A stretch of 64,000 bases of DNA from Xiphias gladius. Its lineage: Eukaryota > Chordata > Actinopteri > Istiophoriformes > Xiphiidae. Numbering within the stretch: the stretch's first letter is position 1; the number at the start of each line of letters is the position of its first letter. Shown here piece by piece: positions 25,325 through 63,419 of this stretch. The notes below the pieces were generated by a model. The model was not told the origin of the DNA, ran no database searches, and worked only from the letters and a program-made list of their open reading frames with translations. Position numbers and translations under genes: made by a program. The DNA is taken from assembly GCF_016859285.1 (NCBI RefSeq), contig NC_053417.1, forward strand, positions 11,049,206 to 11,113,205, written 5' to 3'.

Positions 25325-25396
25325 AGCAGAGTGGCGCAGCGGAAGCGTGCTGGGCCCATAACCCAGAGGTCGATGGATCGAAACCATCCTCTGCTA
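25325..25396 (+). tRNA. Initiator methionine tRNA (anticodon CAU)
   Basis: A 72-nt tRNA without intron. It starts AGCAGAGTGGCGCAGCGGAA and ends CCATCCTCTGCTA, so the acceptor stem AGCAGAG pairs with CTCTGCT. The anticodon stem CTGGG/CCCAG encloses CCCATAA, with CAT at 25357-25359. Initiator hallmarks are visible: the three G:C pairs at the foot of the anticodon stem and GATCGAAA in place of TTCGA in the T arm. It appears identical to the vertebrate initiator sequence as I know it. The internal A box (GTGGCGCAGCGG) and B box (GGATCGAAACC) are intact, and a TTTT Pol III terminator follows at 25400-25403, so it should be functional. Confidence 0.98.
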
Positions 25397-34500: not shown

Positions 34501-35934
34501 GTATTTAATGCCCCCAAAACACAGCCGTATACTCATCTAATCGGCGTCATGTCTGGCAATAGGGTTGTATAGGCCTATCATTGTACAATGAAGATGTAAT
34601 TCGTTTTCCGAACTAATGTACTGTAGTTTCGGAGATGGAACAAGAAGGTTCTATGTTAGTGTGTGGCATCGAGTAGGAAAAAGTTCAGGTGCTCCAGAGA
34701 TGTCTAGCATGCTTCTACTACACTGCAAGTATTTCTGGATTAAGGTGCTTATATCAAATGGTACCAGTCAAACCAGCATATTTACCTATGATTACAGAGG
34801 TGTAAATCTACACCACCTACTTTATTCAGAAACATTTTGTGAAAAATATCAAAAGAAACCTATTCAAACAGTGGAATGAGCAATAAACTACGACAACTGG
34901 AGACCTAATCCGTCCATAGGGGTAAAGAAAATGACACAGGTCAAAAAAAAAAATAAAAAAAAAATCAAGCAACATTGTAGTACTAAATAGTATTTATTAC
35001 TCCAGTGTATTAGTTTCATATGAATTACCTTTGGATTTATATTTGAACACAGTTGTGTATACAGAATGCATAAAATCGTAATCGGTACCACCACCACCCT
35101 TACTTTAACAGCAATACAAACGTTTTTCCCTTAGTGTTAGACCTGATTTTGCCTTTAAAATTTATTTCACATAATTCAGTTTAAAGTATTAAACAGTCTA
35201 ATTTTAAGGCAATGTCCCCATAAAGAATATGGCTTAAAGCTGGTATTGAAGGGGTGAAAAATAAACTGTATGTTTATTATCAGGCTTTTGCTTTGGTAAA
35301 TACTGGCATTAGAGGAAAAGAAATTCGTAGAAATATATGGTAGAACTGTAATCTAGCCTGTAGACTCGGTCACTGTGAGGTGGTGCCATCATGTGGTGAG
35401 ATTAGTATTACATCAACCTCAAAAACTGTTGAACGGAGAGCAAAGTACAAATCCATGTTATGTTTTTTTTAATTTAATCACTCTTACTGTTATATAACTG
35501 TACATGTATATGGAATTATCTGAATTAGTACTAGGACTTAACAGAATGAGCTTTATGTGGATTGCCACTAAATGCCCTGAGGATGTTAAATAACGCACAA
35601 CTTCAAAAGATGTTAAAGCAATAATTCATCAGCAACCAAATGTACATGTAACTCAATGATAATATAATCTTATATATTTTATGAAAATATAATCCATACC
35701 ATGTCACTGACACTATAGGCACATATTCTCAGAAATAAGAACTTCAAGAAATTGCAAAGAAGTGCACAGATTTCTTCTATATATTGTGGAATATATTCTT
35801 ATTATGGATGATGACTGCTTGTCTAGCAAGACCAGAAAGGTCTAGCAAGAAGTGACGTACAACTGTTACTTCATCTTCAATTTCCTTGCCAAAACTGGCT
35901 AAACAAATGGGAGGCAAACCATTATACATTCATT

Positions 35935-36401
35935 TTTTATCTCGAGTCTGCACAATTGAGCAATATCACCAAACACGGCTTATTTGATCATGATTAGTGT
36001 GACAGTCAGAGCAGTGCAGTATTCCACATTTCTGACACAATCAGCCATATAAAGGCTATGTGGAATCTTTAGCAAAGTCTTCTGTTTAGGAACATGTTGC
36101 CAACCATCTCTGAAATTACAGCAAATGTGCCTCTTGCTTGACTGTTTTTTTATTGCTTCTAGTTATTAAGTAATTTTAAGGTTGTTCTTGTCAAAACAGA
36201 CAATAATACACACTTCATAAAATAGTCATAGATATCTGTAAAATGTTCTTGAAAGAAAGACCCTTAAAAGAAAAAGTAAACAAGACAAATATTTAATACT
36301 ATTTCAAAAAGACAAATTATTAGCATTGGATTACAAGTTTTCAGAGAGCCCAATGCACATCAGCGTTTCTATTTATAGAGGCACGTATTTACTGGAGGCA
36401 G
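35935..36401 (-). repeat. 3' flank of T1R copy A, duplicated at 48350-48797
   Basis: Runs such as GCCATATAAAGGCTATG and AATCTTTAGCAAAGTC recur in order near 48470-48500. So the duplicated unit reaches at least 350-450 bases past the T1R stop codon. Identity is clearly lower than in the adjacent exon 6. A minus-strand AATAAA at 36148-36153 could end the transcript. Confidence 0.6.
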
Positions 36402-39400
36402 CTACTGGCTAATTGTTTTGGTATAATTCTGAATGAGACCTTGGAAGTACTGCTGTGTGTTTTTGTAGGGCTGAAAAAGGATGATGTAACATTTTGGGAG
36501 GAAATACCACAACAGAAAGGAGTAGAGACTGGAGAGTACTGCCAGAGCGTTAAGAGTTTGGATGTTCTTTCCATGGTAAAGCACATACATAGTGGCAAAG
36601 ATGATCCAGGTGAGGATCAGCAGGAGCAGGCAGAATGTTATTGCTTTGGCCTCATTGTAATTTTTTGGGAGGTCTTTTCCCATGTAGGAGAATATAAAGA
36701 AAAGGCAGGACAAAAATACAAGTAAAATCACAGAACCGGAGGAGGCTCCGAGACTGGTGTCACAACAAAGTAGGATTTTGCCTGGGTACAAAATTGTTTC
36801 ATTGTAGGGCTTGGGGGGTCCATAAGAGTAGCCAATAAGAATGAGGAGTAACTGAGTAACAAAAGCTCCAGTGATGACCAGCCATTGTCCATGACATTTC
36901 ATCCACCAACTGTGAAGCTTGGGGAACTTGCCAGCTATTTTGAAAATGCACACAATTTGAAAAGCGCGCACAACAAAGCATGCTAGAGATACAGTGTAGA
37001 ACAAAATGAATGGTAAGAGCCTTAAGATACAAAAAGAAACTGTTGGCTTATCAAAGTAAAAGAATGCACTTAGACTACACAGACTGAGACAGCCTAAGAT
37101 TAGGAAGCACATTGGTCCCCCAGCAGATCTGAAAACAGGGTGCTGTAGGTGATGGCAAAGAGAGCAGACATGGCTAGTGTGAGGCCCACCAAAGCCAAGG
37201 CCCCAAACATGAGCAGCACAGCTGCGCTGTCTGTGAATGGGATGTACTCCACCACCCGAAGATTGCATGATGTGCTTCCTTCTGCAGACCATTCTGTCTC
37301 CTTACAGTAGATGCACTCATAGGGATCCCCTGTTTTACATGAAACAATTTGGAAAAAAATTTTAAGGTAAACTTTTGGAATATCCTCTCTGGGTAAAGAG
37401 ACGTCAACCAGCTGCAGAAGCAGCATTAGATGTGTACTCTGTCATACTGTTATATTCTCCTAAAATGAGCTCTTTCTTAACGTAAAGCTTTCTTTAATTG
37501 TAGTCAGAACTATAGTAATAGCTACCCTAGAGAAAATTGTACCAGAACTTAGAATTTATTGCATGACAGGGAATTGGTAAATTGTGCTGTAAAAGACAAC
37601 TGTGAATTTTTAAAAGTATTTTTTACAGTTTATTGCATAGCCATTTTTAATTTATTAAGCCCCAATTGGCATGTGCATGGTCAAAATGAATGAAGTGAAG
37701 CCTACGTGTAGAGCTGTGTCAAGTAAACATGAAATGACTGTTAAATTCTCTTAGCTATGAAACCAAACTTACCAACTGTATGAAATCATCAAGGCAAGAA
37801 TGGCAGAACCACTTTTACTCGTTTTCTTGTTCTCCTGTGCAATAATTTACTTGTGGTGTCGACATTAGTTCCATTGGGACAGATTACACAAGTGAAGCAG
37901 CATTTGTGGATTCCATCTTGCTTTTTTGCATATCCTATAGGACAATCTGGGGAACATAGTAAAGTAGGCACCTGTACAACACAATTGTGTAGCAGCAAAA
38001 CAAATACAAGTTAAACAAAGATAATACTGTGATTGGTGGAGACAAATAAGTGAGAATTACCAGTAATTAGGCCTATATAGCATTTAAACATTTTAAAGAT
38101 TTTGTGTAACATGTACATGCCCAGACACACATTCTTATGGAAGGGGAAAAGCAAAACAAAGTATTTATTTATATCTCATTTACTGTATATAATGCTTGAC
38201 ACACTGTACGCACTGTACTACACATATTGTAATGAAGAAAAAACAACTTACTTCTCCTTTCGTGTACCAATGGATCTTGGTGTTGTTGATGAGATACTGG
38301 CCGATGGGTAAAATTTATTAAAGCCAACCTCCTCTGTATCACCAAGGTGATTCCAGAAAACTATGGAATAGGATCCAAACTTGGGGTCACCGTTCTCATC
38401 AAACTGAATACTTTGATTTAAAAGCATAAAGTTTGACTTCTTCAGCTCTTCTAGAACCTGTTGTGGATGTACAAAGTTCAGATGACCATTACTTCTTTTT
38501 GTTCACAATGAAAAAAGTATGTGCTGATTAAATAGTTTTAAAAAATGTTAAAAAATATTTCTGTGGAGGGAGGAACTGCAGTGAGATGCCTCCCTTAGGA
38601 AGTGGATTATCAGATAGTAGATTTTATCTATCTTTGAAATGACTTGTTCTTGATTTTTATACCAACGCTATGTTTGAAAGGTAACTAAGGTAGAGAGTGC
38701 GTATATCCTGGTGGTGGATCAAAAAAATTGAAAACTGAGGGCATGAAGGTTTTGGTTATGTCAGTAATTTATTTTTGGTAATTATGCCCATTTCTTTCTT
38801 TTTTTTTTTTTCCGGCGTATTTGAGTTCCCAAAAGTGAACTTGTATGTATGCGTGTTGAGACTGTATTACATCTTAATTACAACTACAAATTTGTATACT
38901 TACCATGAGTGGATAGACTGTAATATTGTCATTACATGTGCCAGCTCCACATTTCAAGGCACTGTGTAAGGCATGAGCGATGGCATATACAGCAGAATAA
39001 ACAGGAAAAGAGAAAGATGGGTCCGTGGCAAGGATTTTCTCTGGACTCAGGCTACTGCAGTTGCAAACCTGATTACAAAACTTCTGCTGTCCTGCATTTT
39101 CACAGAGAGTCTGGCTTTTGGAAGAATAGATAAAATCGCTGAAACCAGGTATCGTCACTACTGACTGAGACACCCCAAGTACAGTTCCAATATTTTTGAT
39201 TCTTTTCTTCTTGGGGAGCCTCTTGTTTAAGGACCATGCATCCCCTGCTATCCACACTTTGTTGGTGACATTTAGTTCTATTGCTTTGTCAATGAGTGCT
39301 TCAGCAGTCCATTCAGCAGCAAAAACAATAATGATATGTATCCTCTGTGCTGCTATCGTTTTAAACATTTGGGAGTAATTTGTATTGCCATTGAGACTGT

Positions 39401-40566
39401 TGGTATATGCCAGGCAAATCTCAGTATCCTTAATCCTCTTTATGAATAATTGCAGGCCATCATTGCCATAATTGTTATCACTATTAAGGAAAGCAACCCA
39501 GCGCCAGTTGAAATGCTGCATAATTATAATAATCACTTCAATGATGTCCTTATTAGGACGTACTGTTCGGAAGAAAGATGGGAATTTTGCTGTGTTTGAA
39601 AAAATTGAACTAGAAGATCCGTAACTGACCTGTTGACAGAGAATAAATATTGCAAGCTGTTTCAAATGAAAGAAATGACTATAACATATACTGAACTGCA
39701 TTGATTTAAGACGGTCTGTTTGAAAAAAACTTACCATAGGAATGAGATCCACCATGAACAGTGGGGCTACAGTCAAGACCTGAGTGCTTGTGAAAGGACC
39801 AACCACTGCTGTCACGTTGGACTTATGTCTTTGTTTCTTGTGTGGTTCACCCCAAGGTTGAATCAAGCCGTTGACTGAAATGAGGTTGAAAATACCTGGA
39901 AAATTCTGTGCATCTGAGCAGTGGTCCAATATCTCATAGCCAAGAGATACATTTGGCAGTAGGTTGGTAGAGTTATTGATTTCCTCTACAGAGAATCTCA
40001 TCAACTGAAATCTCAGATAATCTGAAAGAATGAAGGGTTGACTATGGACAGAGAAAGGAAGGCAGGAGAGTTTTCAAGCTTTAGAACGTCTTATTGCAAC
40101 AGTTATACCGCAGTGTTTTAAGCATCACTATTGTTAAAGGCTCAAATAACGCTCTTGGGACCCCTGTAGAGATATGGATACTACAAAAGGGAATTTTATT
40201 GAACAAGAACTGAATTCCAACCTAATGTTACGGAGCAACTTTGGTCAAGTAGCAATTAACCGGATTGTTTTTGCTACTAAGCAAAGCAATAATAATACTA
40301 CTACGACTAATAATAACAATAATAATAATAAAATTTTGTGTTCTTAATTAGTTTCATCATGGCATCCACCAAAATTTATTATAAGACTCACCTGGAACAG
40401 TCGATGGCCCCTGGTCTGTCATGATAAACAGGGGCACTGACATGATGGATATTAAAAAGTCCACCTAATCTCCTTCCAGCTGCAACTCTGAGGCTGGTAC
40501 AGTGCAATGAGCGAAGGCATATAGAAAAGGTCCCAGTAAACACAGAGAAGCAAGAAAATATTTCAT
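36402..40566 (-). pseudogene. tas1r2: Taste receptor type 1 (T1R2-like) pseudogene, copy A
   Basis: Six exon remnants on the minus strand: 40392-40566, 39735-40041, 38904-39629, 38252-38457, 37851-37971 and 36402-37329. The order and splice phases match the intact copy at 48798-53065. Three lesions break it. In exon 1 a 7-base deletion at about 40466/40467 turns the frame and gives TAG at 40465-40467 after 33 residues. In exon 4 one base is missing at about 38293-38305 (206 against 207 bases). In exon 6 one G is missing in the run at 37138-37140 (928 against 929 bases). Exons 2, 3 and 5 remain open, and the exon 5 donor base is A rather than G. The TM region is otherwise well preserved (SYMGKDLPKNYNEAK, FLPKCYIILFQP), so the loss is recent or the sequence has been refreshed by gene conversion. 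Single-base shifts could be assembly errors; the 7-base one is less likely to be. Confidence 0.9.
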
Positions 40567-40794
40567 AGTGGTAGTTACTATTTACCAGTCTGATTTGAAC
40601 TATATTGAGATTTGTCTCTGCCTTTAATAAGTTATGAACCACTGGTGATGGTTAAGCCTCAATGATCATTTCCATACATGAGGGAATGAAATTCATATAT
40701 ATAAATGGTTGGGGGAGAATTCACAAATCCGTATGCAAAAGCATCTAAACTGCTGCTGAACAGACTCCCTGTGATGTATACATGCAAGGTTTAA

Positions 40795-41000
40795 CAATCA
40801 TCATGAGCATCTATACCATCCCTGAGGTTTCAAGGACTAACATTAGTTTTAGAAAAAAAGAATAGTTTAAAAAAATAAAGAGTAAAAATGTCTTTAGCCA
40901 ACTTACCAAGGAGTAAAAGTATATTATAAGCATTTTTTAGTTGAGCATTTTTAAATGCTGACCAGTTTCGAACTTCAGCTATCATGGTGGAGATAATAAA
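40795..41000. repeat. Duplicated non-coding segment, copy 1
   Basis: TACCATCCCTGAGGTTTCAA, GGACTAACATTAGTTTTAGA, GGAGTAAAAGTATAT and TATCATGGTGGAGATAA recur in the same order at 44925-45100. In this unit the segment lies just upstream of the T1R pseudogene. Confidence 0.8.
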
Positions 41001-41579: not shown

Positions 41580-41950
41580 AGATCAAACAGGACAGAGCTA
41601 TAAGCAAATACACGCAGATTAAAGCAATTCAACCCACTATCTTTAATTTACGGTAAAGATCATCTCCTCTTACAAATGATCCCTGCACAATTCAACATTG
41701 GACCCCACAAGTCATTTGAAAGAGGAAAATTTGCAATCACTCAGCAGATGCAAGTAATAAATGGCCAGGACTCTCGCCAGAATTTTAATTCAGGAAACCT
41801 CCTGGTGGAAGGGCGGAACTCTTTGTTCCACTCGGTAGGAGAGGATTGGCCCTCATCAAATAAAACAGATTACACAATGAAGTTAATAGAAGACCAAATA
41901 TCCTCATTAAAGGATATTCAAATAATGAGGTACATGTATGTAAAAGTAAT
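41580..41950 (-). pseudogene. Decayed duplicate of rer1 coding exon 5 with intron flanks, copy 1
   Basis: On the plus strand the block AAGCAAATACACGCAGATTA ... CAATTCAACATTGGACC ... GACTCTCGCCAGAATTTTAA ... AACCTCCTGGTGGAAGGGCG parallels 57830-58110, where the functional rer1 exon lies (58007-58085 on the minus strand). The exon part is recognisable but mutated, and the neighbouring coding exons of rer1 are absent. A 118-codon plus-strand frame over it (41676-42032) is antisense chance. Closest relative: the copy at 46450-46750. Confidence 0.85.
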
Positions 41951-42219
41951 CCCTGTGAGACAAAAGCTCAGGCGTCAGACTGCTCTGAATGCTAGGTTTT
42001 CAATGGTTGTTTCTACTTCCATGACGAGCTGATTTACAGTCATCCCCTCCAAGCACACCTTGTTCCAAAACAGTCTACTTTAGTTTTATAGACATTTAAT
42101 GCACTCCAGCATACAAATAACCAATGGTGCATGTTTACTATACACTTGTTTGGTGACAGCAGAGTAAAATTTTGATAGCAATGTTAGCTTTTGTATTTCC
42201 TGACAGCAGGATATACAGT

Positions 42220-44140
42220 CGTTATTTTAGTGCATTTTCTCCTGGGGGTCCTCCTGGGGAATCCAGAGGCGTTCCCACGCCAGATGAGATATATAATCTC
42301 TCCAGCATGTTGCATGTTCTGGGTTTACTCTGTGGCCTTCTACCAATTGGATAGGCCTGGAAAACCTTGAAAGCAAGGCGCTCAGGAGTCATCCTCATCA
42401 GATGCCCAAACCACCTCAACTGACTCCTTTCAACAAGGAGAAGTGGCAGCTCAACTCTGAGCTCCCTCCAGATATCTGAGCTCCTTACCCTATCCCTGAG
42501 GCTGAGCCCAGCCACCCTTTGGAGGAACCTTATTTCAGCCGCTTGTATCTGTGATCTCATTCCTATGGTCCCTACTCAAAGCTCATAACCATAGTGGAGG
42601 GTTGGAACATAGACTGGTAAATCAAGAGCTTTGGTTTCAGGCTCAACTCCCTCTTCACCACAATGGTCTTGTATAACACCCACATTACTTCTGTCACTGC
42701 ACCAATTCACCTGTCAATCTCTCTCTCTATCACTTGTAAATGAGAGCTCGTGATACTTGAACTCTGCCACCTGGGGGAGCAAATCACTCCCAACCTGGAT
42801 GGCTCAGTCCACCATTTTCTGGCAGAGAACCTCAGACTTGGAGGTGCTGACTCTCATCCTCACTGCTCTGATGAAGCCAACATCCACATCATCTGTAAAA
42901 AGCCAAGGAGTGATTCTTAGGTCCCAAACCAGACATTCTTCTCTCACTAGCTGCACCTTGAGATCCTATCCCTGAAAATCATGAATAGAATTGGTGATAG
43001 GGGACAATGATGGCGGAGCCCAGCACCAACCTAAAATGTGTTTGACTTCCTGCCAAGGATACGGAAACAGCTCTCACCCGGGTTATATAAGGATAGGATG
43101 GCTTGAAGCAATAGCCCTGGTCCAACATACTCCGACATAACCCCTCCACAAGACATCCCAGACACTCCACTGTTCCATGGCCAAGATGGACTCCGTATTA
43201 TCCCTCCTGGATGTGAGTGGGTTGCAGCCTCATTAGTACCCTGGCATAAGCTTTCCAAGGTAGACTAAGCAGTGTGATAACTCCTTTTTTTTTTAAAAAT
43301 GGGAACCACCACTTTGGTCTGCCAGTATACAGGCACTGTCCCCAACCTAGACACAACATTGAAGAGGTGTGTCAGCCAAGACTGGCCGAAAATGTCCAGA
43401 TCCTTCAGCATCTCAGGGCGAATTTCATTTACACCCGGTTCCTTGCCACTGACGAGCCTCTTAATTACCTCAGAGACCTCTGCCAGGGATATGGATAAGG
43501 CTTCTTCTGAGTCTTTCGACTCTGCCTCCTCCACAGAGGACGTGTTTGCTGGGTGTAGGAGTTCCTCAGAGTGATCTTTCTGCTGTTTGAGAATATCACC
43601 AGGCAGGGTCGGCAATTCTCCTCTCCTGCGGACATCCTGAGCCAAGCCCTGCTTCCCTTTCCTGAGTCACTGGTTTGGCAGAACTTTCTTGAGGCCAAAG
43701 AAAAGTGCTTCTCCAGGGCCTCCCTGACCTCCTCCCAAACTTGGGTTTTGCTTCGGTGACCATCGAAGCCACAGCCCTTCTGGCCTCTGGTACTTGTCTG
43801 CTGCTTAAGGAGTCCCCTGAGGGAGTCTGAAAGTCCTCATTCACAGGTTCTCAGGCCACAACAGGCAAAGACAACCTTCTGACCACAATTCAGAGTGTCT
43901 GACTCCACAATGGAAGGTTTGAACATGGCTCACACGGATTCCATGTCTCCAACTTCCCCTAAGATGCATGAGGAATTCTTCTGCAGGTGGGATTTAAAGA
44001 CCACGGGGGCCAGGGCTCCTACAGATGTTCCCAGTTTACCCTCAATAAATGTTTGGGTTTACCATGGTTGTAAGGCAGGCTAATCCTCTGCCTTACAGAC
44101 CCTCACCATCAGGTGGTGATCAGTTGACAGCTCTGTTCTG
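42220..44140 (-). mobile_element. Decayed LINE retrotransposon between the T1R copies
   Basis: Read on the minus strand: an endonuclease end near 44140-44090 (CTGATCACCACCTGATG, coding TDHHLM), then RT start motifs at 43645-43265 (SSVEEAESKDSEEALS, SGKEPGVNEIRPEMLKDL, VYWQTKVVVPIFKK). Its C-terminal part is at 42560-42220 (RVAGLSLRDRVRSSDI, VERSQLRWFGHLMRM, GRRPQSKPRT). Frames shift repeatedly, so it is inactive. This wording belongs to a non-LTR family very abundant in fish genomes; I do not fix the clade. It sits where the middle duplicated unit would be expected to hold a T1R gene. Confidence 0.88.
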
Positions 44141-44924
44141 TTTTGGAAAGTTTGCCCTGTTTAGACATTCTGGACATAAAAAGCACACAAAAACTCTGAT
44201 GGGTTGAGAAGAATAGAGTAAATGTATACAATACAGGTACCTTACAGCCTTGAAGCCAAGGGGGGAATCTCTCTGAATTAAGGTCTGAACATAGTGTACA
44301 GTTTTTCTTGGAAACAAAGATCATGATTGGCCATTTTCCCAAAAAAAATCTGATATTAACCAGTTGTCAAAAACCACAAACTGTCCACACGTTGTTCACA
44401 CTCTGATGTAAGCTGTGTATGCACAGAAGTTTGTATTACAATTCTGGGAGACAGAGGACCTTCACAGAACATCTGAAATGCATTTAGCATGATGTTTTCA
44501 CTTTCTTCAGCTACATAAATCACAAAAGGCATAGGTACAGAGTGTTCCAAAAGCACACAGTTATAACAAAGTGAATAAATGATTAACAAATGATTCATAC
44601 AAATTATACTTTCACAGCTCCTCTCTGCAGATCTGATGATACAACCACAAAGTCAATCATAAATCTTTGACCTGGAATGTTCTTATAACAAAGAATCATC
44701 ATTTAGCATGTTAAATGCCTCTATCATGAATAAATATTGTAATCCTTAGAAACAATATAGAACTTCCTTCCTTAAGCCATTATGACAAATTCACTTTAGT
44801 TGTTAAAATCATTCTGTGTGACAGATATTAGGATGACAAAAAAACAAAGACAAACATAGAAAATATATCTATGTTTAAAAAATCATGGAGACAGCTTCCC
44901 TTTGCAACAACATTTGGCATACCT

Positions 44925-45100
44925 TTGTCTGTACCATCCCCAAGGTTTCAAGGACTAACATTAGTTTTAGAGCGCAAAAAAAAAAAGAAAAATGTTTTTT
45001 AGGCAGTCCACCTAGGAGTAAAAGTATATATATTTAGTTAGCCACATTAATGGTTTAAAATGCTAATACGTTTTGATCTGCAGATATCATGGTGGAGATA
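44925..45100. repeat. Duplicated non-coding segment, copy 2
   Basis: Parallels 40795-41000 (GGTTTCAAGGACTAACATTA, GAGTAAAAGTATAT, ATCATGGTGGAGATAAC) at roughly 80%. There is no T1R exon next to it, unlike copy 1. Confidence 0.8.
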
Positions 45101-45348
45101 ACTAGATTAACACTGTGTTTACACAGTATCATAGCAGGAGAAGCACATTAGCAGTGCAGCAGCAGCAGCTTCAGTGCTCCATCTGTGTTTACACAGGACT
45201 GTATTGAGTGTAGGGAATTTTGGAATTGCTCAGAGCCCCATACACAATCACTATGGTTATTCACATAAAATGGAGGTAAATACATTTGGAGCGTAAAGAA
45301 TTTTGGTGTGTAGTGTGAGTGAAATGCAAGCCTTTAGATGGCCTGTGC

Positions 45349-45420
45349 AATTCAATTCAATTCAATTCAATTTTAGTTATATAGCGCCAAATCATACCAG
45401 AGGTTATCTCAGGGCACCGT
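45349..45420 (-). repeat. LINE 3'-end fragment with TTGAA tail
   Basis: Tandem TTCAA units are followed by TTTTAGTTATATAGCGCCAAAT and AGGTTATCTCAGGGCA, the typical 3' end (in reverse) of a fish LINE with a short tandem tail. The rest of the element is absent. Confidence 0.65.
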
Positions 45421-46084
45421 GGTGACCTCATGGATGGCTTGTCTTCAGTCAGGCCACATGGGGTCGTGATATACCATACTATGTGTTGTACCAAGTGAAC
45501 CTGCTTAAAGAGAAAAATGCTGCTAGTAAGAACCAGTCATATGAACAGATTCATTCTGACGTGAATAATCCAAGCGATTTAAGAGAACTGGTGGCATTCA
45601 TGAATTATCTGTAAGGTAAAAATAAAATTCACAATTGATCCAGGCCTCTTGTATGTGTCATGAACAGATAAACTGCCTTTCTTCACATGGGGAAAACATA
45701 CTTGTTTGATTTAAGAATTATAGTGGCTTAATCTGAATGATTTTGGAGTTCATATCAAAATTGATGCAATTAAAAAGTATATATAATAAACTTAATGGCT
45801 TGCCAATTTACAGAGAGGTTTTTTTTTTAAAGATTTTAGCATTTTTATTGGCATATTTTGTCACAGCAGCTTACACATATCAGTAGTTCTTAGGAAGATT
45901 CTTTATGCAGTTTTTTTTTATCCAGTATCATTCTCTGTTGCACCCAAATGTATAACAACACCTACTGTAGGCTGTAATATTCTCTCATATATATCTCAGT
46001 GATTGTCATCTCCTTGACTGCCTCACATATTAGTCATGGACTGCTTTGCTATAGAAAGAGGTTTTTTAGCATCTAACTTCATAT

Positions 46085-46170
46085 AGCCAAAACCATTTCT
46101 TCCACTCAGGTTTTTTTATGAGCAAATTGAAAATTCACCTAAAAACCTGAGTGGATGGAAACACCCCTTA
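46085..46170. mobile_element. Palindromic MITE
   Basis: TCCACTCAGGTTTTT at 46101-46115 is the exact reverse complement of AAAAACCTGAGTGGA at 46141-46155. The outer ends read like CATTTCTTCCAC and GTGGATGGAAAC. The GGATGGAAAC-type end is familiar from abundant teleost foldback MITEs. Confidence 0.6.
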
Positions 46171-46449
46171 TGAAACTTTTCCACATATGAAGCAGAACAG
46201 GTAGCCTTAAATGGCAATTTTAGGGTTGTTGATTATGCTAATGATCAAATCTCATAAACACGCACCTCTTCATGAACATATAGTAATCAGTCTGAAACGA
46301 GCAAAGTTTGTGCAGTCAAGAGATTTTGGTGAATCCAAATTGGAACACTCAAAGAAACAAGCCTCACATAAAAATTTGAAGGAAAAAGTTTAGGACAAAA
46401 ATACAAAAAGGATGTTGCCTGATGCTCATTGTCTTCCTTCCACCCACAA

Positions 46450-46755
46450 AAGTCACACAGAATATAGTCACAAGCAAATACACACAAATTAAACGAATTC
46501 AACCCAGTATCTTTGGTTTATGCTAAAAGGTCACCTCCTCTTACAAATTCTCTCTGCACGATTTAACATTGCACCACACAAGTTATTTGAAAGAGGTACA
46601 TTTGCAATCACACAGCAGACAAAAGTGATAAATGGCCAGGACTCTCACCAGAATTTGAATTCCTCCTGGTAGAGGCATAGAACTCCTCGTTTTGCTTAAT
46701 AGGAAAGGCTAGGCCCTCACCAAGTGAAACAGAATACACAGGGTAGTTAAAAAGG
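46450..46755 (-). pseudogene. Decayed duplicate of rer1 coding exon 5 with intron flanks, copy 2
   Basis: AAGCAAATACACACAAATTA, AACGAATTCAACCCAGTATC, GGACTCTCACCAGAATTTGA and GAACTCCTCGTTTTGCTTAA follow the order of 57830-58110. The donor context CTCACCAGAATTTGAATTC is still identical to rer1 at 58002-58020, but the exon interior has lost bases (CAGGCAAC is missing) and frame. No other rer1 exon lies nearby. Confidence 0.87.
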
Positions 46756-47254
46756 TAAAAGGTACATAAAAGAATGAATTAATTCACTTTATTTGATTTA
46801 CCATTTAATGCAACAAGGCTGTAAACGACATAAAGTTTAATAAGATTTTAAAGTGTTCATTTAAAGTATATTGTACAATGAATCTTACAGATGTTTTAAT
46901 TAATGTGCCAACAACATTACAAGACGTGTTCTCTTTGATTTAGTTATTCAAATGCAAAAATACAATAGCTGATTCTCTTATGTAATAACCGTTTCTCTTA
47001 TGTAAGTATATTTTTGAGTTTAAGTTTTGATCAACTGAGTGCAGAGATTTATTTTCCTAACTAGAGAATTTGTATTTAATGTGTGCAGTGTGAAAGATTT
47101 AATACTCTACAAGGCCAGAAAGCTTTAGCATAAAGGGACATACTATTCTAACTTTATCTGTTTGCTAGCTAATTTAGCTAAATCATTGGCTACATTATTG
47201 TAAGGAAACAATCGCAGTTAAATTTATATGCCCTCTTGCTGTGAGTTAGGTGAG

Positions 47255-47460
47255 GAGAGTGATACTGCTCTCATATTCGTTTGTTAGATATAAGGCTACA
47301 GCCGGTAGGTGGGATAGCTTAGCTTAGCATAAATACTGGTAGCAGGAGGAAACACTTTACCTGGCCCTGTCCCTAGGAAAAAAACTACCAGCAACTCTCA
47401 GTAATTAATATGTCATATCTCATTTGTTTTAAAACAACTTAAGTGTAAACAAGACTAGGT
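47255..47460 (+). repeat. Ancient teleost short interspersed repeat
   Basis: Contains TAGCTTAGCTTAGCATAAATACTGG, GGAGGAAACAC and CCTGGCCCTGTCC, then TAATTAATATGTCATATCTC. This order is a very common fish repeat of uncertain class. No coding content. Confidence 0.6.
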
Positions 47461-48349
47461 CAAAACCTAGTATATGGGTAGACTACGTATGGTCAATGTG
47501 CGAAATTGAGGACATAGTTGAAAACTGTTGTGGAACCCCTGTAAACAACTTTTTTCGATTGAAATGAGCTAAAGCTGGCTCTAAAAGTTGCTGAATGTCG
47601 CTCAATGACGTAATAAACTAATTAGCACATTCATGATGCCATTGCTTTGTATTTGTATTCTTCCCAGTGTCAGCCGGTGTCAGCCCTTTATCTTTTGGCT
47701 TCTCTCCTACTCTCTGTGCTCACATATACATATTTTAATACAGTTAATTCCCAATAAAGCTGTTCTCCTTTGCATGTTTTTCTGTTTCTGTTGTCAGACA
47801 ACAGAACAAGTATGAAATAGTGACTGAAACACGGCCCATTAAGACTACATGTTAACCAGCAGTCACTTCCAAGCCATTTCCAAGAAGCTGCTCTGCACTG
47901 CTGAAATCCTGATTTTATATCTACGATGTCATCTGACAAAACATCATACACACAAGTTAAAGACAACGGCTGTGCTGTGATTTCGGCTGTATTTACATGT
48001 AAAATGATCACTCAGAGAGAAAGTTAGAATCTCTTTCATGTCTGTGTTGGCTGCCGTGAAAAAACAGTCACTAAAGTTGTCTGAACTGTTTGCCCCAATT
48101 CATCTTGAAGGAGCAACAGCCACTGGGGAAACACCAACACGCGGCCAACTTCTTTACGCCCTCAACTCTAGTACTCAATCAGTCACTCAGTTACTAACAG
48201 ACATTTGGGGATGTAGCACTGGAATGTGGGCAAAAAAGACAAGCTGTAGCTTCATGTTTAAGAGACAGACAGGAGACAGAGAGTGGTATCAAACATCTCA
48301 TCTAACTCTGGGCTAGAAAATAAATAACCATATCTGCCAAAATGTAGAT
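47461..48349. other. Intergenic, nothing recognised
   Basis: No domain-bearing frame on either strand. Open frames at 47688-48011 (-) and 48038-48316 (+) have no recognisable features. Confidence 0.55.
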
Positions 48350-48797
48350 TATTCCTTAATGACACCTGCACAATGGAGCGGTATCATTAAAATGACTGAT
48401 CATAATTACTCTTACAATGAGAAAAAAAGCAACATCCCCATTACTGATTAAAGGTATCGTCTGAATACATAAAGGCTACTACATAGAATCTTTAGCAAAA
48501 TCCTCCGTTTAGGACTAAGACATATTGCAGGCCATCTCTGAGATTGTACAGTCTGTGCCACCATAATGTTTCTTACTTTATCTAATTTTAGCTCATTCAA
48601 AGACTTTGTTTACTGGCATATTCCTCAAAAAAATAAACAAACTTCAATAAAAATATACAAAAAACATTTGTTTACAACTCCAGGAATAAAATCACAAAGA
48701 TTTAAATTAAAATATACTCTGAAAAGCAAAATCATTAGTAAGGGCCTGAAGCACATCAGCTTTTCTATTTATACAGGCATGTATTTACTGGAGGCAG

Positions 48798-51700
48798 CTA
48801 CTGGCTAATTGTTTTGGTATAATTCTGAATGAGACCTTGGAAGTACTGCTGTGTGTTTTTGTAGGGCTGAAAAAGGATGATGTAACATTTTGGGAGGAAA
48901 TACCACAACAGAAAGGAGTAGAGACTGGAGAGTACTGCCAGAGCGTTAAGAGTTGCGATGTTCTTTCCATGGTAAAGCACATACATAGTGGCAAAGATGA
49001 TCCAGGTGAGGATCAGCAGGAGCAGGCAGAATGTTATTGCTTTAGCCTCATTGTAATTTTTTGGGAGGTCTTTTCCCATGTAGGAGAAAATAAAGCAAAG
49101 GCAGGACAAAAATACAAGTAAAATCACAGAACCGGAGGAGGCTCCGAGACTGATGTCACAACCGAGTATGATTTTGTCTGGGTAAAAAATTGTTTCATTG
49201 TAGGGCTTGGGGGGTTCATAAGAGTAGCCAATAAGAATGAGGAGTAACTGAGTAACAAAAGCTCCAGTGATGACCAGCCATTGTCCATGACATTTCATCC
49301 ACCAACTGTGAAGCTTGGGGAACTTGCCAGCTATTTTGAAAATGCACACAATTTGAAAAGAGCGCACAACAAAGCATGCTAGACAAACAGTGTAGAACAA
49401 AGTGAATGGTAAGAGCCTTAAGATACAAAAAGAAACTGTTGGCTTATCAAAGTAAAAGAACACACTTAGACTACACAGACTGAGGCAGCCTAAGATTAGG
49501 AAGCACATTGGTCCCCCAGCAGATCTGACAACAGGGGTGCTGTAGTTGATGGCAAAGAGAGCAGACATGGCTAGTGTGAGGCCCACCAAAGCCAAGGCCC
49601 CAAACATGAGCAGCACAGCTGCGCTGTCTGTGAATGGGATGTACTCCACCACCCGAAGATTGCATGATGTGCTTCCTTCTGCAGACCATTCTGTCTCCTT
49701 ACAGTAGATGCACTTGTAGGCATCCTCTGTTTTACATGAGAGAGAAACAATTTGTCAAAAAAGTTAAAGTTAACTTTTGCAAAAATAATAAGACAGACCA
49801 AAAGAGAGATCAAAAAAAGTAAAGAGAAGGCAAACAGCTGAGTAAGCAGTGTTAAATGTTTAATCTTTGATGTATGTTCTCCTAAGATGTGCTTTTACTT
49901 AATGTCAAACTTGCATTAGAGTTTACAGTGGTATACACAAATAACTTATTGCTGTAGTTTAATTTGCATGTTCAGAGTGCAGAGTGCACATGAAAGCCTA
50001 TGTGGATAGCTGTGTCCGATCAACATGAAAAGTCTGCTAAACCGACTCAGCCTTGAAAGTTTAACACTGCCAGAAATGAGCTCCCATCAAGGCAAGAATG
50101 GCAGCATCACTTTTACACGTTTTCTTGTTCTCATGTGTAATAATTTACCTGTGGTGTTGACATAAGTTCCATTGGGACAGATTACACAAGTGAAGCAGCA
50201 TTTGTGAATTCCATCTTGCTTTTTTGCATATCCTATAGGACATTCTGGGGAACATAGTGAAGTAGGCACCTGTACAACACAATTGTTTAGCAGAAAAGTA
50301 AATGTAAGTGCAGGAAATAGAAAGTTATAGGAGGGTATCTGATAGAGAAGTAGCAATAACTAGGCCTATACAGCTTTTTGAATTTATAATCAGGTTTTGT
50401 AAAATATAACCATCAAAGACCACAGTGATCAGCCACCATTGGTGGATGTTCCTGATATTGTAGTTGTCCTGTCACAGCTTTATCAAAGAAATGTATCTTT
50501 GAGCGAATGTGCACTCATATAGACATCCATGCAGAGGTTGGAAAACTAAAACAAAGTATTTTAATATCACCATTTACTATATAATGAAAACTACTTACTT
50601 CTCCCTCTGTGTACCACTGAACTTTGGTGCTGTTGATGAAGAACTTGACTGATGGGTGAAATTGATAAAAGCCGACCACCTGTGCATCACCACTGTGGTT
50701 CCAGAAAACTATGGAATAGGATCCGAACTTGGGGTCACCATTCTCATCAAAATTAATACTCCGGTTCAAAAGTGTAAAATTTGACTTCTTCAGCTCCGCT
50801 AGAACCTGATTTGGGTACACAAAGTTCATAATACTTGCATGTGTTCACAATCGACATTGGAGGTGTTGATTAAATAGGTTTTTAGGTTTAATACTCCTAT
50901 TGAAGAAAGAACTGCAGTCTAATGCCCCTCTTTAGCGGTTATAAAAAGTGCTTTATCAAACTCTACACTCCTCTATCACTGAAATTTGTTGTCTGAGATT
51001 TTGATATCAAGGCATTGTTTACAAGGAAATAAAAGAGTGCACACATCCAGGTGCTGGATGAAAAAACTCAATATTTAAGGCAGAAATCAGACAAAACATT
51101 TGCACACTGTGGTGGTACCCCCCAGTTAATTAAAATTTAATACAGCAAGGTTTTAACCTATCAGAGATGTGATGAGATTGAAACCTTTCACACGGCTTGA
51201 TGAAGCCTGGCAAAGAGCTCTCTGAGATTGAAACAGTTAAAGTTTTGAAAGTATTGGAAGCCATCAGTAGAGTGTGCAGATCTATTGTCTGATTTCTAAT
51301 ATTTAATAGGTAACAGTCAGTTTTGATTGTATTCTGATGATTTACAGGCTTTTTTTTTTTACATCTGTAATGTCATGATTAAATGATTTCTCATTTTTTT
51401 TGCATACTCACCATGTGTGGGTAGATTGTAATATTGTCATTACATGTGCCAGCTCCACATTTCAAGGCACTGTGTAAGGCATGAGCGATGGCATATACAG
51501 CAGAATAAACAGGAAAAGAGAAAGATGGGTCCGCAGCAAGGATTTCCTCTGGACTCAGGCTACTGCAGTTGCAAACCTGATTACAAAACTTCTGCTGTCC
51601 TTCATTTTCACAGAGAGTCTGGCTTTTTGAAGAGTAGATAAAATTGCTGAAACCAGGTATCGTCTCTACTGGCTCAGACACCCCAAGTACAGTTCCAATA

Positions 51701-53065
51701 TTTTTTATTCTTTTCTTCTTGGGGAGCCTCTTGTTTAAGGACCATGCATCCCCTGCTATCCACACTTTGTTGGTGACATTTAGTTCTATTGCTTTGTCAA
51801 TGAGCGCTTCAGCAGTCCATTCAGCAGCAAAAACAATAATGATATGTATCCTCTGTGCTGCTATCGTTTTAAACATTTGGGAGTAATCTGTATAATGATT
51901 GAGGCCTTTGGTGTACGCCAGGCAGATCTCAGTATCCTTAATCTTTTTTATGAATAATTCCAGGCCGTCGTTGCCATAATCATCATCAGTGTTAAGAAAA
52001 GCAACCCAGCGCCAGTTGAAGTGCAGAAGGATGTTAATGATCACTTGTATAACGTCCTTATTGGGATGTACTGTTCGAAAGAAAGAGGGAAAATTCTGTT
52101 TTCTTGAAAAAACAGAGCTAGCAGCTCCGTAACTGACCTGTTAAATGAGCAATAGACAAATTGTCATTATTTTTGATGACAATAAATTCTCAAAAGTTAA
52201 ACTGCTGTTAAAGGTGTTTTAATTCAACATACAATAGTTGGCAAATTTACCATAGGAATGAGATTCATCATAAAAAGTGGGGCTACAGTCAGTGTCTCAG
52301 TGCTTGTATAAGTGCCGACCACTGCTATCATTTTGGACACTTTGGACAGATTCTTGTGTGGTTCATCCCAAGGTTGGATCAAGCCATTGACTGAGATGAG
52401 ATCCAAAATACCTGGAAAATTCTGTATATCTGAGCAGTGGTCAAATATCTCATAGCCAATAGATACATTTGGCAGTAGGTCGGTAGAGTTATTGATTTCC
52501 TCTACGGAGAATCTCATCAACTGAAACCTTCGATAACTTGACAGAATAAAGGGTTGACTGTGAACAGAGGCAGGACAGCAAGTGTGTATGAATTAATTTC
52601 GCTGTTCAAGTATTACTGTTTATGAAGACTGTACAGATATGGATATTTAAAAGGATTTCATGCAACAAAGACAGAGGTCAATAATACAGACTTTAGGTCC
52701 TTCAATAACTTTGACAATAAAGCAATTTACTTGATTGGTTTACGGGGGAAATGTGTAATTATCAATAGCAATTGACCTCAAGTTTGAGTAAAACACTTAA
52801 ATATATACAGTAATCTGTTACACTAGGAATTCTTCATCAGTTTCAACTTCAGAAGATATCCATTTAGATTTATTATGACTCACCTGGAGCAGTCGATGGC
52901 TTCTGGTCTGTCATGATAAACAGGGGCACTGACATGATGGATATCAAAAAGTCCACCTATCAAATAATCTCCTTCCAGCTGAAACTCTGAAGCTGGGAAA
53001 GTGCATTGAGTCAAAGCACACAACAGAGGTTCAAGCAGACACAGAAAAGCAAGAAAATGTTTCAT
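48798..53065 (-). CDS. tas1r2: Taste receptor type 1, T1R2-like class C GPCR, copy B (6 exons, 823 aa)
   Basis: Exons on the minus strand are 52884-53065, 52251-52557, 51412-52137, 50599-50805, 50149-50269 and 48798-49726. All junctions are GT-AG, and the total is 2472 bases. It has a signal peptide (MKHFLAFLCLLEPLL) and then a venus-flytrap domain to about residue 470 (GDYLIGGLFDIHHVSAPVY, MRFSVEEINNS, VSYGAASSVFS, YSAVYAIAHALHSALKC). A nine-cysteine domain spans about 475-540 (KCCFTCVICPNGTY), and seven helices run from about 548 to 805 (VVRSAGGPMCFL, RSFQIVCIFKIAGKFP, YMGKDLPKNYNEAKAITF, FLPKCYIILF). T1R2 should pair with T1R3 on taste cells; fish T1R2/T1R3 receptors respond to amino acids (family knowledge). 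The T1R2 label rests on wording such as EIFDHC, YSAVYAIAHALHS and NTQQYFQGLIQ against human T1R1-3; fish paralogue numbering cannot be set here. An alternative in-frame ATG is at 53080, but the 53065 one is conserved in copy A. Confidence 0.93.
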
Positions 53066-53080
53066 AGCTGTAGTTAGCAT

Positions 53081-55611
53081 TTACCAGTCTGATGTGAACT
53101 CTAACTTGCCTTTGCCTTTAGTAAGTTATTAGACACTGGGTGACATCTAAGCCTCACTGATCATTTCCATGAACTTGGAAATACATGAGGCGTGCTAAAC
53201 GCCTATGAAGGGTTGGGGAATTCACAAATCAGAATGCAAAAATAATCTAAACCGCTGCTGCAGAAGCCCTGTGATGCCTACACACAGAGTTTAACAATAA
53301 TGGAGAAGCAAGTTTAGTGCCTCTATCATAAAAAGAAAATCGGGTAATCCTGCAAATTACACGTTCCTTCTTTTATCCAAATCACCAAATGCACTCAAAA
53401 TTTTTACTTAAAATGTGACATCCTCTTTTGGTACATTTGAATGTTTTAGTTTACCTTCCTCCATACAGCCCGGGATTACACAGGTAAGACTAACAGTGTT
53501 TATATGATGTTTCAGAGCAATTCAAGGAGAAAGTTATACTTGTCTCCTTTATGCAATTAGTGGCTGCAGAAATCACCAAAATGTAAAGTTAGATATCAAG
53601 AGAGCAAAGTATATTGGTACTTACTAATTCTGGTCATTTGCATTCATATCACACTTTGTGTCTTCTTCTCGTATCTCTTATCACTAACTTAGAGAAGGTT
53701 GAGTGTGGAAAATGTTAAGAGAATTATGAACCGCACTGAAATTGTTTTGACTAGAGGAAACAGGTATATTGACACCTATGGCCCAGATATGTTTTTTTTT
53801 TTTTTGGTTGTTTGTCCTTCAACCTCTCCTCCATGATTACCTACAAAATATGAAGCCAAGACACCAATGTACTGTTTGAAGGGACACAGCCTCTTTAATA
53901 GCATTTGGAGTGAAAAAATTACACTTAAGCTATTAAAATCAAGTTTTTGTTTTTAACTGTAGCACAAGAAAACAAGAACATGCAATCCATGAGAAACGTA
54001 TTTAATTCATTAAATCTAGAACCCAATTAACCAGTTCTGCTTTCATCAATTTCAACTGAAATGGATCTAAAAATAGGAAACAGTATGGTGGTTGAAAAAA
54101 AACAAAAAAAACAAAAATAAAAATAATCTCAAAAAAATTTCATATTTTAAAATATATATATATATACAAATCCTCCAGACAATCCTTTGAAACACAAACT
54201 TTTTACAGGAAAATGTTTTGATCCCTTACTACAGTGCTGATCAAAGTTTAGTAATGACAGATAATCCCCAGCATTATGATAAAAATGGGAAAAAAAAAAA
54301 TCAACAGGTTTATAGAAAAGAAAGTGTGATGGCCACCCACTTCATCCATTTGTTATAATAAAAGCTCTCAATCTCTGTTTTCTTATGTTTCCTCTGCAAA
54401 AGAAAGAGAACAACAGTTTGCTTGGAATGACTATATTTACCATAATCTTTTTCAAAGTAAACACAGATTATAAAAGGACTACAACAGCTAGTCTACACAA
54501 GTCGAATGGACCCCAGGCTTTGAAACACAGATGGGAAAATGTTTCAAAGAGAGAAGGTCGTTTGGGTGAAGGTGGAATTTTTTTATTACTGTGTAAGATT
54601 AGACCTTGTTATGAATTGGACTTGAATACTGATTCTGCACTTTGAAGACAGTATGTTTTGAATAATTATCCACATAATGGTGTAAAAATCTGAGGTAAAG
54701 CAAATTCATTGACTTGCCGTTTCAAGCTAAATGCCCCGTAAAATGATTTTAAAATTTGGTTTATAGGGGTTCTCAACGACACAGTATCCCATCTGTTAAA
54801 CTTTACAAAGGCTCAAAAGTAGAAAAAACTGGTTTAAAGGTAGACTACAGGCTACAGGAAGCTAAATGGGTTGGGGTTAGTGACATTCGCCTTGAAATAT
54901 GCATCCAGTGAAAGTGATGGTAGGTGGCTGACGATTCAAATGAAGTCAATAATAATCATCCATACTGATGCCTGCTACACTGGCTATGCTAGTGTGACTC
55001 GGGTAATACACAGAATTGCAATAGTAGCCAATTCAAGATATACATCAATCAAAAATTATTTGTGCTGAGTGTAATGATTTTCGTAGATGAATTATGATCT
55101 TTTTTCTACCTGTCATGAATGCATATTCAAGTGTAATGTGACTAGTCTCTTCAAAGTGTCTGTGTTAAGTACAGAGGACATCTGACTGACACACTTTTAA
55201 GCCAGAGCAGCTGCACACTTTTATCACAAAAGATGAAATGATTCAAATTTTAGACTGTTGCATTTCCTTCAGATTTCATCTTACACAACTAATCATGTTA
55301 TTTTGCTATTAGCACTACTGACTTTCATTATATAACTTGTCATAAATAAGTGGGAACCAATATATTAATCAAAAGTTGGAAGAATTATTCAATTTGGGAG
55401 AAGGACGTGCTGGAATCACCATAACCGAGGGGGGACCAAAAAAAAGGAAGGAAAGAAAGAAAAAAAAAAAAAAAAAAATCAACCAAAAAAATTTCACTGC
55501 AAATTTTTATTCAGTGTAGTTCCTTTTAGATGACTTTATACTTACCCCATGGGGCTAAAAAGGCAAAAGGCAGCGCTTAGTCTCACCTACTACTGAATAG
55601 ATGCAAACCAC

Positions 55612-55643
<32 letters not shown>

Positions 55644-55884
55644 ACCTCTTAATAGACTCTTAATAGACAAAGGCAAAATGCCCCAGACTAACTTGATCCA
55701 TGCTGCTCATATCCTCATCCAACACTGTGAAACCATGGATCAAAACTTCTATTTTTCATGTTATGTTTTCATGTTACTGTCCCACTTACAAAAGAAGAAA
55801 ATAAATCTCTGACCCTTGTCACTCCCCACTAGCTGAGACTGATAGATTTCAAATGAGAAGGAGGGGAAGGCTAAGTGGGAGTTT
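53081..55884. other. Intergenic between T1R copy B and rer1, including rer1 3' UTR
   Basis: AT-rich. Homology to the region upstream of T1R copy A continues to about 53320 (ATCTAAACYGCTGCTG, CCCTGTGATG). A minus-strand AATAAA at 55506-55511, about 375 bases after the rer1 stop, is a candidate polyadenylation signal. A 29-base A run lies at 55612-55640. No gene seen. Confidence 0.6.
55612..55640. repeat. Poly(A) run of 29
   Basis: Uninterrupted A tract after CAAACCAC; it lies within the presumed rer1 3' UTR, where it is a poly(U) tract in the transcript. Confidence 0.9.
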
Positions 55885-58800
55885 TTAACTAGCAAAAGTT
55901 TTCCCTGTGTCTTCCTTGCCTTTGTATGTCCTCTTCCCATGTGTGAAGGGTAGGTATCTGTACTTGATCATATGCTAGAGAAGGTGGAGAAGAAAAAGAG
56001 GAGAATTAGTGAGAGGTATTTGTAGGGTTTGACCAAACATTCTTACCAACTTAACCCATGAGATGGAGTAGCACAATGACTGCTGGTTTTATCAAGTAAA
56101 GAAAAAAAGAGAAGGAATTAGTGCTTAACACAAGGTATCCAGGTATTCAGAATAAAACAAATACACTGTGTATAAAGGGTGGACACAATAAGAGAAACAC
56201 CTGTACAATATAATGCAGTTGAATAAAATAGCCATTAAAAAAATATGACCTTTGTTAATGTCAAAATGTTCTGTTTTGGTAAAGGCTTTTTCAGAGTGTT
56301 AGAGTCATCTCTACTTTAATTTTTGTATTGCATTATATAGTCTGGTGTTTCTGACATGTTAAAAACTAAGGTACCAAAGTAAACAGCTATGGTGCATGAT
56401 AAATAGATTTGCTTCTAGACTTTGGCAGTAGATTTTCTGTCTGATCTGAAGAACACTTTTTGGATGAACCGCAGTGTTTGCATTACACATCTGTGACTCC
56501 AGTACAGCCACAGTGTCTACATATACAGTGCATGTACATGTCAGTCAATATATGCTTTTTACCTTGATCTGCCTCTTCATGGTGATGCAGAAGAGCATGA
56601 TGAAGTACATTACAAGTATAGGCCAGAACACTGGCACATTGAAGGCATCAAAAAATGTGCAAATCATGGCGATGACGATGCCTTTAGTCGCAGAATGCCT
56701 GGCAAGAAAAGAAACATAACATCAGTTAAAACAGTGTAATCACATTTGTGACACTGAGTACGCATAACAACATCCTGAACCCTAACTCAAAGTCATCTAC
56801 TGAATGTTTCATGTATGTACATTGTGTCAAGGCACTAAAGGATATTTCTTCTTGAGTGTAGTCAGAGACGTTGCAAGCCACTTAAAGCATTTTGAATATT
56901 AAAGTCCGTAACGAACAAGATGGTGCTTTTATGACACACACAACATGACAAGAGCTGGACCTGGAAACATATCTAGCCAATCGTGTTGTTGCACTGATGC
57001 AAGCGAAACCTTGAGCATGCATAGTAGAAGGTTAACCTTCTTCTACCTGGGGACGTTGCCAAGATGGCTGCCGAGTGGTGGGACTTGCCTATAACGACTT
57101 TGGAGTAGTGTGAGGAAGGGTTTTATGAGTTCCTAACATAAAATAAATCCATATTGGAAAATGCAGGAAGTCTTAATGGGAAGTATATTTGACTAATCTT
57201 ATCAGTAAGGCCAAAAGGTTGTTGGCTAAACCTAATATCTTAATATTTTTTAATGTAATTTATTTTCATTGGTTTGGTTAACTCAGTAAGTCTTCAAACA
57301 GTTGATGAATAAACTGTTCAGAACTCTTAAAGTTACTTCACAGTTTTAAAAACAACCTGGTCATTTATGTTTTCAAGTTATGAACCACATGAAAAGAGAA
57401 ACCAAAGATTATCTTTTCATACACCAGGCAAATGCAGGCTGTAGACTGACTGATGCAAAACCACTCCACTCTCTTCCTTCTTTATCTCTCTCTTGAAACA
57501 AGAGGATACAGAATTTGCATAAACACATGACAGACAAGGTTTAACACAAACTGTAAATGGTAGAACACATTGGGGCTGAAATGTATCTTTCATGACCAAT
57601 TAGTAGCATTTTCCTTGATACATAATTCTTATGCTGGCAAAAAATGCTCGAAGATGTGACCTGTTGCTGTGAAAGTTTGTCAAGCCATGCTTACAAAAGT
57701 CAAATGAAAAGTTTTTATATTCGATGTGTTTTTAGAAGTAAGACTTTTATGTTATAAGGATAATTTATGGATGATAAGACTGAAGTAGGGATAAAGTTGA
57801 GATAGGGATATAAGATCACATGGGGTCATAAGCAAATAGACAGATTAATTCAACCCAAATTCTTTGGTTTGTGCTGAAATGCTACCCTACAAATGAGGTC
57901 TGCATGACTCAACCTTGGACCACACAGATCATTTGGAAAGAAGATAATTTGCAATCTCTCTTCGGTTGAAGGTGATAGGTGTGAAGACCATGAAGTGGAC
58001 TCTCACCAGAATTTGAATTCAGGCAACCTCCTGATGAAGGGGCGGAACTCCTCGTTCTGCTTGGTAGGAAGGGATGGGCCGTCATCTGCAGGAGATTTAA
58101 GTTACAAGGTAATGTGGCGGTTAATAAAAAGGTGGAGTATTCAATCATGACACAGCCTTAATTCCAACAATATCCAAGCTTAAACATAAAAAACACTATC
58201 TGATAAAATCTATTACATTGCTTGTCTTTTTTTTTTCTTGAAGACACAGTTACTGTGGAACTGAAACTAGTTTGAAACATTTTCATATCAGTGTGGCTGG
58301 CACTATGAAATTTTATTTCACTGGATGTTTTAAGTTTGACTTTGTGGATGTAGTGCTCTTTTCGCTAACATAAAAAAAACAAACTGTGTTTAAGTGTTAT
58401 GTACAGTTGTAGGTCTATAAGTGTTTGGATAGTGACACAGTTTTTGTAATCTTGCCTCTGTACATCACCACAGTGGATATGAAATGAAGCTTTCAAGATG
58501 TAATTGAAGTGTTGACTTTCATCTTTAATTCAAGAGGTTTAACAATAAATACCACATTAAACGTTCAGGAATTACAGCCATTTTTATACATTGTCCCTTA
58601 TTTTCAGACGCTCAAAAGTCATTGGACAAACCAACAAGATTATTAATATTGGGATTATTTTTAATACTTGGATTAAAATCCTTTTGCAGTAACTGAAGTC
58701 TGGAACCTATAGACATCACCAAATGCTGAGTTTCCTCCCTCGAGAGGCTTTGCCAGGCCTTTGCTGCAGCTGCCTTCACTTGCTGCTTGTTAGTGGGTCT

Positions 58801-61550: not shown

Positions 61551-61551
61551 T

Positions 61552-63273: not shown

Positions 63274-63400
63274 CTGATACGGCCGTTGTTGTCACTACCC
63301 GGCTCTACCTAGCTAGCTAAACTAGCTACCTCTCGTGCAAACTGGTGCGAACACGTCAGTACTTCCGCAAGGACTCGAACAAACGCCAGGCAGGATAGTA
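63274..63400 (-). other. rer1: Probable non-coding first exon of rer1
   Basis: On the minus strand ACGGCCGTATCAG is followed by GTAAGAAGGG, a strong donor at 63273, preceded by CpG-bearing sequence. The coding exon at 61470-61551 starts one base before its ATG, so a spliced leader is needed. The 5' limit is not visible. Confidence 0.55.
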
Positions 63401-63419
63401 GATCCCCGAGACCGTTGAA

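Follow-up and report, generated by a model that had tools for sequence, protein, structure and literature searches.

Partial copies of neighbouring genes are a general kind of feature found at the junctions of tandem segmental duplications. In zebrafish, medaka and fugu, the neighbours listed for the T1R2 taste receptor gene include rer1 and gpr153 (PMC7014666, figure legend), and lineage-specific duplications of TAS1R2B occurred in zebrafish and fugu (PMC10781636). Both the T1R2 duplications and the rer1/gpr153 neighbourhood are, as far as the available text of these papers goes, already known in other teleosts. Another system bearing on this locus is the lws opsin of anabantoid fishes, of which the available text describes tandem copies with patchy gene conversion (PMC11291592).

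In this study, we have analysed a window of 64,000 nucleotides of the Xiphias gladius genome (contig C18), together with searches of the whole genome (690,834,319 bases in 1298 contigs). Two decayed fragments of rer1, here called F1 and F2, lie beside the T1R2 genes, and our results make it very probable that they are functionless relics of a tandem segmental duplication that ran from the T1R2 3' flank into rer1.

The T1R2 genes, rer1 and its two fragments

All three genes, rer1 and both copies of T1R2, are on the minus strand of the window (Table 1). The Pfam Rer1 matches of rer1 keep the exon order (60519-60656, 59910-60020, about 57991-58194, 56560-56697 and, below the cut-off, 55921-55980); its exons are numbered as in the first-pass annotation, exon 5 contributing a peptide of 25 residues. 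In rer1 intron 4 there is a Tc1-like transposase remnant (58929-59351), with a weak Pfam HTH_Tnp_Tc3_2 match below the cut-off.

Table 1. Positions in the window of the genes, rer1 fragments and flanking blocks.
Feature	Position	Strand	Remarks
T1R2-A 3' flank	35528..36222		Piecewise match to 46755-47189 and 48366-48652
T1R2-A	36345..40801	-	Exon 6 frameshifted relative to T1R2-B
X1, upstream of T1R2-A	40810..40996		Matches X2
F1, rer1-block relic	41583..41886	-	Last ~30 bp common to F2, absent from rer1
Y2	44705..44809		Matches T1R2-B 5' flank 53307-53414
X2, between F1 and F2, no adjoining T1R2	44928..45101		Matches X1
F2, second rer1-block relic	46453..46750	-	7-nt exon deletion; acceptor lost; donor retained
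Probable tandem-duplication junction	46750..46755		End of F1/F2 similarity against start of T1R2-B 3'-flank similarity
T1R2-B 3' flank	46755..48652		Piecewise match to T1R2-A flank
T1R2-B	48741..53301	-	Best solved relative is medaka T1R2a
rer1 block recurring in F1 and F2 (exon 5 and ~180 bp of intron 5; ~260 bp)	57828..58086	-	Self-BLAST, sensitive comparison
rer1 coding exon 5, source of copied block	58007..58085	-	Translation, splice sites, ordered Pfam Rer1 matches over 60656-55921

The two receptor genes belong to T1R2 rather than to T1R1 or T1R3: exon 3 of T1R2-B matched 5x2m_A (medaka T1R2a) with an E value of 1.1e-102, the next match being T1R3 at 1.8e-37, and Pfam recognised 7tm_3 in T1R2-B (exon 6) and ANF_receptor in T1R2-A. 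When exon 6 of T1R2-B was used in a translated search of the genome, the closest of the 48 matches were T1R2-B and T1R2-A, and the next reached 39% identity (C18:10752290). The first-pass annotation had spoken of a taste-receptor array; this was overstated, as the search finds a pair of T1R2 genes genome-wide, both in the window and one of them frameshifted. More than half of the 48 matches (26) fall within C7:18293039-18451867, a cluster that we take to be probably V2R-type olfactory receptors. The frameshift of T1R2-A lies at about 37100-37140; either the gene became a pseudogene recently or the assembly is wrong at this point.

T1R2-A and T1R2-B are homologous over the gene and its flanks, with an uneven degree of identity. 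Windows of 200 bases give 95.5-99% identity in exon 6 and 94-97% in much of exon 3, against approximately 45-70% in the introns; near-identical stretches pair 36396-37300 with 48792-49690 and 38931-39430 with 51439-51940. Within exon 3, synonymous divergence is 0.96 over the first 45 codons and drops to about 0.07 over codons 90-225. Judged by these alignments, exons 3 and 6 look like the products of patchy gene conversion. Elsewhere in the window, rhodopsin-type GPCR exons lie on the plus strand at 1304-1714 and 5482-5994, just under or below the Pfam cut-off, which we presume, given the known synteny, to be gpr153; the Rfam and tRNA scans had a tRNA-Met gene (25325-25396) as their sole result.

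The rer1 block is repeated twice outside rer1, and the first-pass observation of these two copies is confirmed. By self-BLAST, the region around exon 5 (57830-58110) matches F1 at 41602-41857 (72.0%, E 4.6e-34) and F2 at 46496-46719 (69.1%, E 9.6e-24), and F1 matches F2 at 78.0% across 305 columns (E 1.4e-67), always on the same strand. In all, homology to the block spans 41600-41857 in F1 and 46467-46719 in F2, in the orientation of rer1. Aligned to 53302-64000, F1 and F2 score 235 and 207; the highest scores of 150 random pieces of about 300 bases drawn from positions 1-47300 were 165, 163 and 76, and our guess is that the first two of these pieces overlap F1 or F2. A tandem-repeat scan of 35-64 kb returned five rows, of which none falls within F1 or F2 and one (40844-40881) falls within X1.

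The first-pass annotation had described the intron flanks as alike. This holds on the donor side, and fails on the acceptor side, where the homology stops at the edge of exon 5: extension past the splice acceptor into rer1 intron 4 was no better than for shuffled sequences (73 of 150 scored as high for F1, 48 of 150 for F2). The tail of approximately 30 bp common to F1 and F2 was, in its F1 version, not found in intron 4 (288 of 300 shuffles as high), and its F2 version has a match in intron 4 that is not colinear (13 of 300). The acceptor AG is gone from both fragments, the donor is GC in F1 and GT in F2, and the F1 reading frame is open through the exon. Both fragments retain intron 5 sequence that a processed retrocopy would have had spliced out, which argues against that origin.

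Colinear flanks and the proposed duplications

On the 3' side of the two T1R2 genes, 35528-35910 and 46755-47189 form a chain with a score of 94 (maximum of 300 shuffles, 66), whose first block on its own was equalled by one of 300 shuffles, and 35948-36222 matches 48366-48652 at 63% (E 2.6e-14). On the 5' side, X1 starts 8 bases past the end of the T1R2-A gene homology and matches X2 with a score of 172 (maximum of 300 shuffles, 54), and Y2 matches its counterpart beside T1R2-B with a score of 67 (maximum of 300 shuffles, 38); 44705-45101, from Y2 to X2, holds remnants of T1R2 5' flanks. All of these blocks keep their strand and their order (from the T1R2 5' end through Y and X to the rer1 piece), which fits repeated units made of 3' flank, T1R2, 5' flank and rer1 piece.

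The T1R2-B 3'-flank similarity starts 5 bp past the end of F2, even in a comparison that takes in the last part of F2. The position 46750/46755 thus fits a join between units, the rer1-derived end of one lying against the T1R2 3' flank with which the next begins. Where exactly F2 ends is uncertain, because the F1-F2 similarity can be extended to 46783 in a start-anchored alignment or to 47031 in a looser one. With colinear, same-strand blocks flanking T1R2-A and T1R2-B and this probable junction, the first-pass idea of a duplicated unit that takes in a T1R gene together with part of rer1 is supported, and that reading was correct in its main lines.

Several other results count against the model in its simplest form. 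A duplicated junction predicts that the sequence right of F1 matches that right of F2, and it matched neither this (174 of 300 shuffles as high) nor the T1R2-A 3' flank (188 of 300). No T1R2 remnant stood out at 41.9-44.7 kb (24 of 60 against T1R2-B, 56 of 60 against T1R2-A) or just left of Y2 (141 and 260 of 300). X did not rise above shuffles upstream of T1R2-B (53302-57808; 5 of 60 for X2, 58 of 60 for X1), and Y was not found upstream of T1R2-A. The two X-F gaps lack similarity to one another (229 of 300); wider rer1 homology is borderline left of F1 (37 of 500 shuffles reach its score of 30, and 23 of 500 its score of 50) and at shuffle level left of F2 (224 and 248 of 500). The interval between F1 and Y2 also contains broken frames (42222-43836) that we take to be LINE-like, two of which had no Pfam match when tested.

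Tandem duplication is well supported by the homology, order and strand of the blocks and by the position of the probable junction. A first event would have copied the T1R2 3' flank, the gene, its 5' flank and rer1 as far as a point at or near the start of exon 5, yielding T1R2-A and T1R2-B separated by a truncated piece of rer1 that either lost exons 6-7 or never held them. In a second event, probably later, at least the 5'-flank blocks and the rer1 piece would have been duplicated again to give F1-X1 and F2-X2-Y2, after which the copies would have decayed neutrally, with LINE-like sequence now between them. We infer the number and order of these events, their mechanism (crossing-over or replication) and the deletion of exons 6-7 from the extra copies. 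As the X-F gaps are unmatched to each other and borderline against rer1, exons 6-7 may have been deleted afterwards or may have been left out at the time of duplication. Given the lack of a T1R2 trace at 41.9-44.7 kb, the second event may have copied the Y-X-F part alone, or a deletion may have removed a third T1R2.

A variant of this explanation is that a replication-based rearrangement, template switching, brought non-contiguous stretches of rer1 and of the T1R2 flanks together in one step, so that the extra copies never had exons 6-7. It draws on the presence of the same block in F1 and F2 and on the finding that neither exons 6-7 nor further intron 5 left a clear trace between the X blocks and either fragment. 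However, the shared limits are explained equally well by one deletion that preceded the second duplication, and F1 and F2 would need to descend from one such event anyway. We regard template switching as rather unlikely, bearing in mind that, as a variant, it overlaps in probability with the explanation that we prefer.

Decay and relatedness of F1, F2 and rer1

The first-pass annotation held that the fragments resemble each other more than either resembles rer1. The BLAST figures above agree with this, and so does the intron part of the three-way alignment, in which F1 and F2 are 82.7% identical to each other and 70.1% and 71.5% identical to rer1 (Fisher p 0.004 and 0.010). The exon part is reversed (73.6% between F1 and F2, 82.3% and 79.2% to rer1, with the exon taken as 58009-58090 rather than its exact limits), pooling both parts gives p 0.08 for each comparison, and optimal pairwise local alignments make the three identities nearly equal (80.3, 79.3 and 78.0%). 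The kinship of F1 and F2 is therefore carried by the intron part and by the indels common to both.

The contrast between intron and exon parts fits, at the sequence level, relics that decay freely and a rer1 exon held under constraint. Across 25 codons, 12 nonsynonymous and 2 synonymous changes separate F1 from rer1; when this is limited to the 19 codons that can be compared in all three sequences, F1 has 10 and 2 and F2 has 10 and 4. F1 thus shows no constraint. The fragments have the character of unprocessed pseudogene pieces, with no sign of purifying selection, disabled splice sites in both and a disrupted frame in F2, that of F1 being open.

These data also bear on the idea that selection maintains the copies, be it as a regulatory element, as an alternative exon of rer1 or in some other role. 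The open frame of F1 would suit it, and so would the higher F1-F2 identity in the intron than in the exon, a difference that is not significant (p 0.12). Nevertheless, the exon changes are mostly nonsynonymous, the acceptors are lost in both copies, F2 carries its 7-nt deletion, and splicing to F1 or F2 would require crossing T1R2-B; selection on the copies is very improbable. We give similarly little credence to a more specific form, in which each extra T1R2 unit retained an adjoining intron-5 piece of about 200 bp because this piece carries a regulatory element of the taste-receptor genes that resides inside rer1. If true, it would mean that the duplicated unit carried gene and enhancer together.

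In the intron part, the K2P distance is 0.20 between F1 and F2 and 0.36-0.39 between either fragment and rer1; local alignments give 0.26-0.44 for four T1R2-A/B introns (global sliding windows give a higher divergence) and 0.16 for X1 and X2. That the fragments are as far from rer1 as the T1R2-A/B introns are from each other, in order of magnitude, speaks for the duplication model. The values are compatible with an older split of T1R2-A and T1R2-B and a younger split of F1 and F2, the samples being small and the alignment methods not strictly comparable.

Copies elsewhere in the genome and comparison with known systems

With F2 as query, the 690-Mb genome contains three places that match, namely F2, F1 and rer1. 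The rer1 block is thus not a detectable dispersed repeat with this query, and the dispersed repeat that the first-pass annotation had named as its refutation did not appear. The same search with the rer1 block found rer1 and F2 and missed F1, which indicates that a genome DNA search can miss weak copies; the T1R2-A 3' flank found itself alone and missed its 63-70% match in the window. The Pfam Rer1 profile had 10 matches in the genome. Those on C18 are the rer1 exons and F1, which passes the cut-off (C18:11090928-11091068, 25.6 bits, E 0.0036) while F2 does not; elsewhere, one match is above the cut-off (C23:2689775-2689933, 25.8 bits) and three are below. This C23 place covers profile positions 105-157, a different part from that in F1, within an open frame of 130 amino acids, and represents a chance match or a second gene. 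As F2 falls below the cut-off and the unrelated C23 place scores like F1, the profile search plays a supporting role.

Capture of the rer1 piece by a mobile element that carried it to two places, an idea invited by a short block found twice outside rer1 with LINE-like and (weakly, by Pfam) Tc1-like sequences nearby, is very improbable, since F2 finds no further places, none of the three inverted-repeat pairs in each of two regions has arms bracketing F1 or F2, and the rer1 strand and T1R2 flank order are preserved.

In kind, F1 and F2 are an ordinary outcome of tandem duplication. Their interest lies in what they record: they mark a duplication boundary, and they provide a clock that does not depend on the coding exons of T1R2, which look homogenised in part between the two genes. 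Given related genomes, they could help to count and order the T1R2 duplications of fish. Our literature search on T1R2, rer1 and teleost duplication, within the text available, met no description of rer1 fragments in a T1R2 cluster, and the available text of the reports on teleost T1R2 duplications (PMC7014666, PMC10781636) does not mention such fragments between T1R2 copies; that of PMC7594079 has nothing bearing on the locus. The lws opsin copies, as described in the available text (PMC11291592), resemble exons 3 and 6 of T1R2-A and T1R2-B in that old tandem copies show very little synonymous divergence in patches; they belong to another gene family, and that text mentions no neighbour-gene fragment. 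The closest likeness is therefore with the partial neighbour-gene copies at tandem duplication junctions in general, which, like F1 and F2, are decayed fragments of exon and intron that keep the original strand and abut the duplicated genes. Nothing essential sets our locus apart from them; its particular traits are that there are two copies and that the fragment comes without the rer1 exons nearest T1R2.
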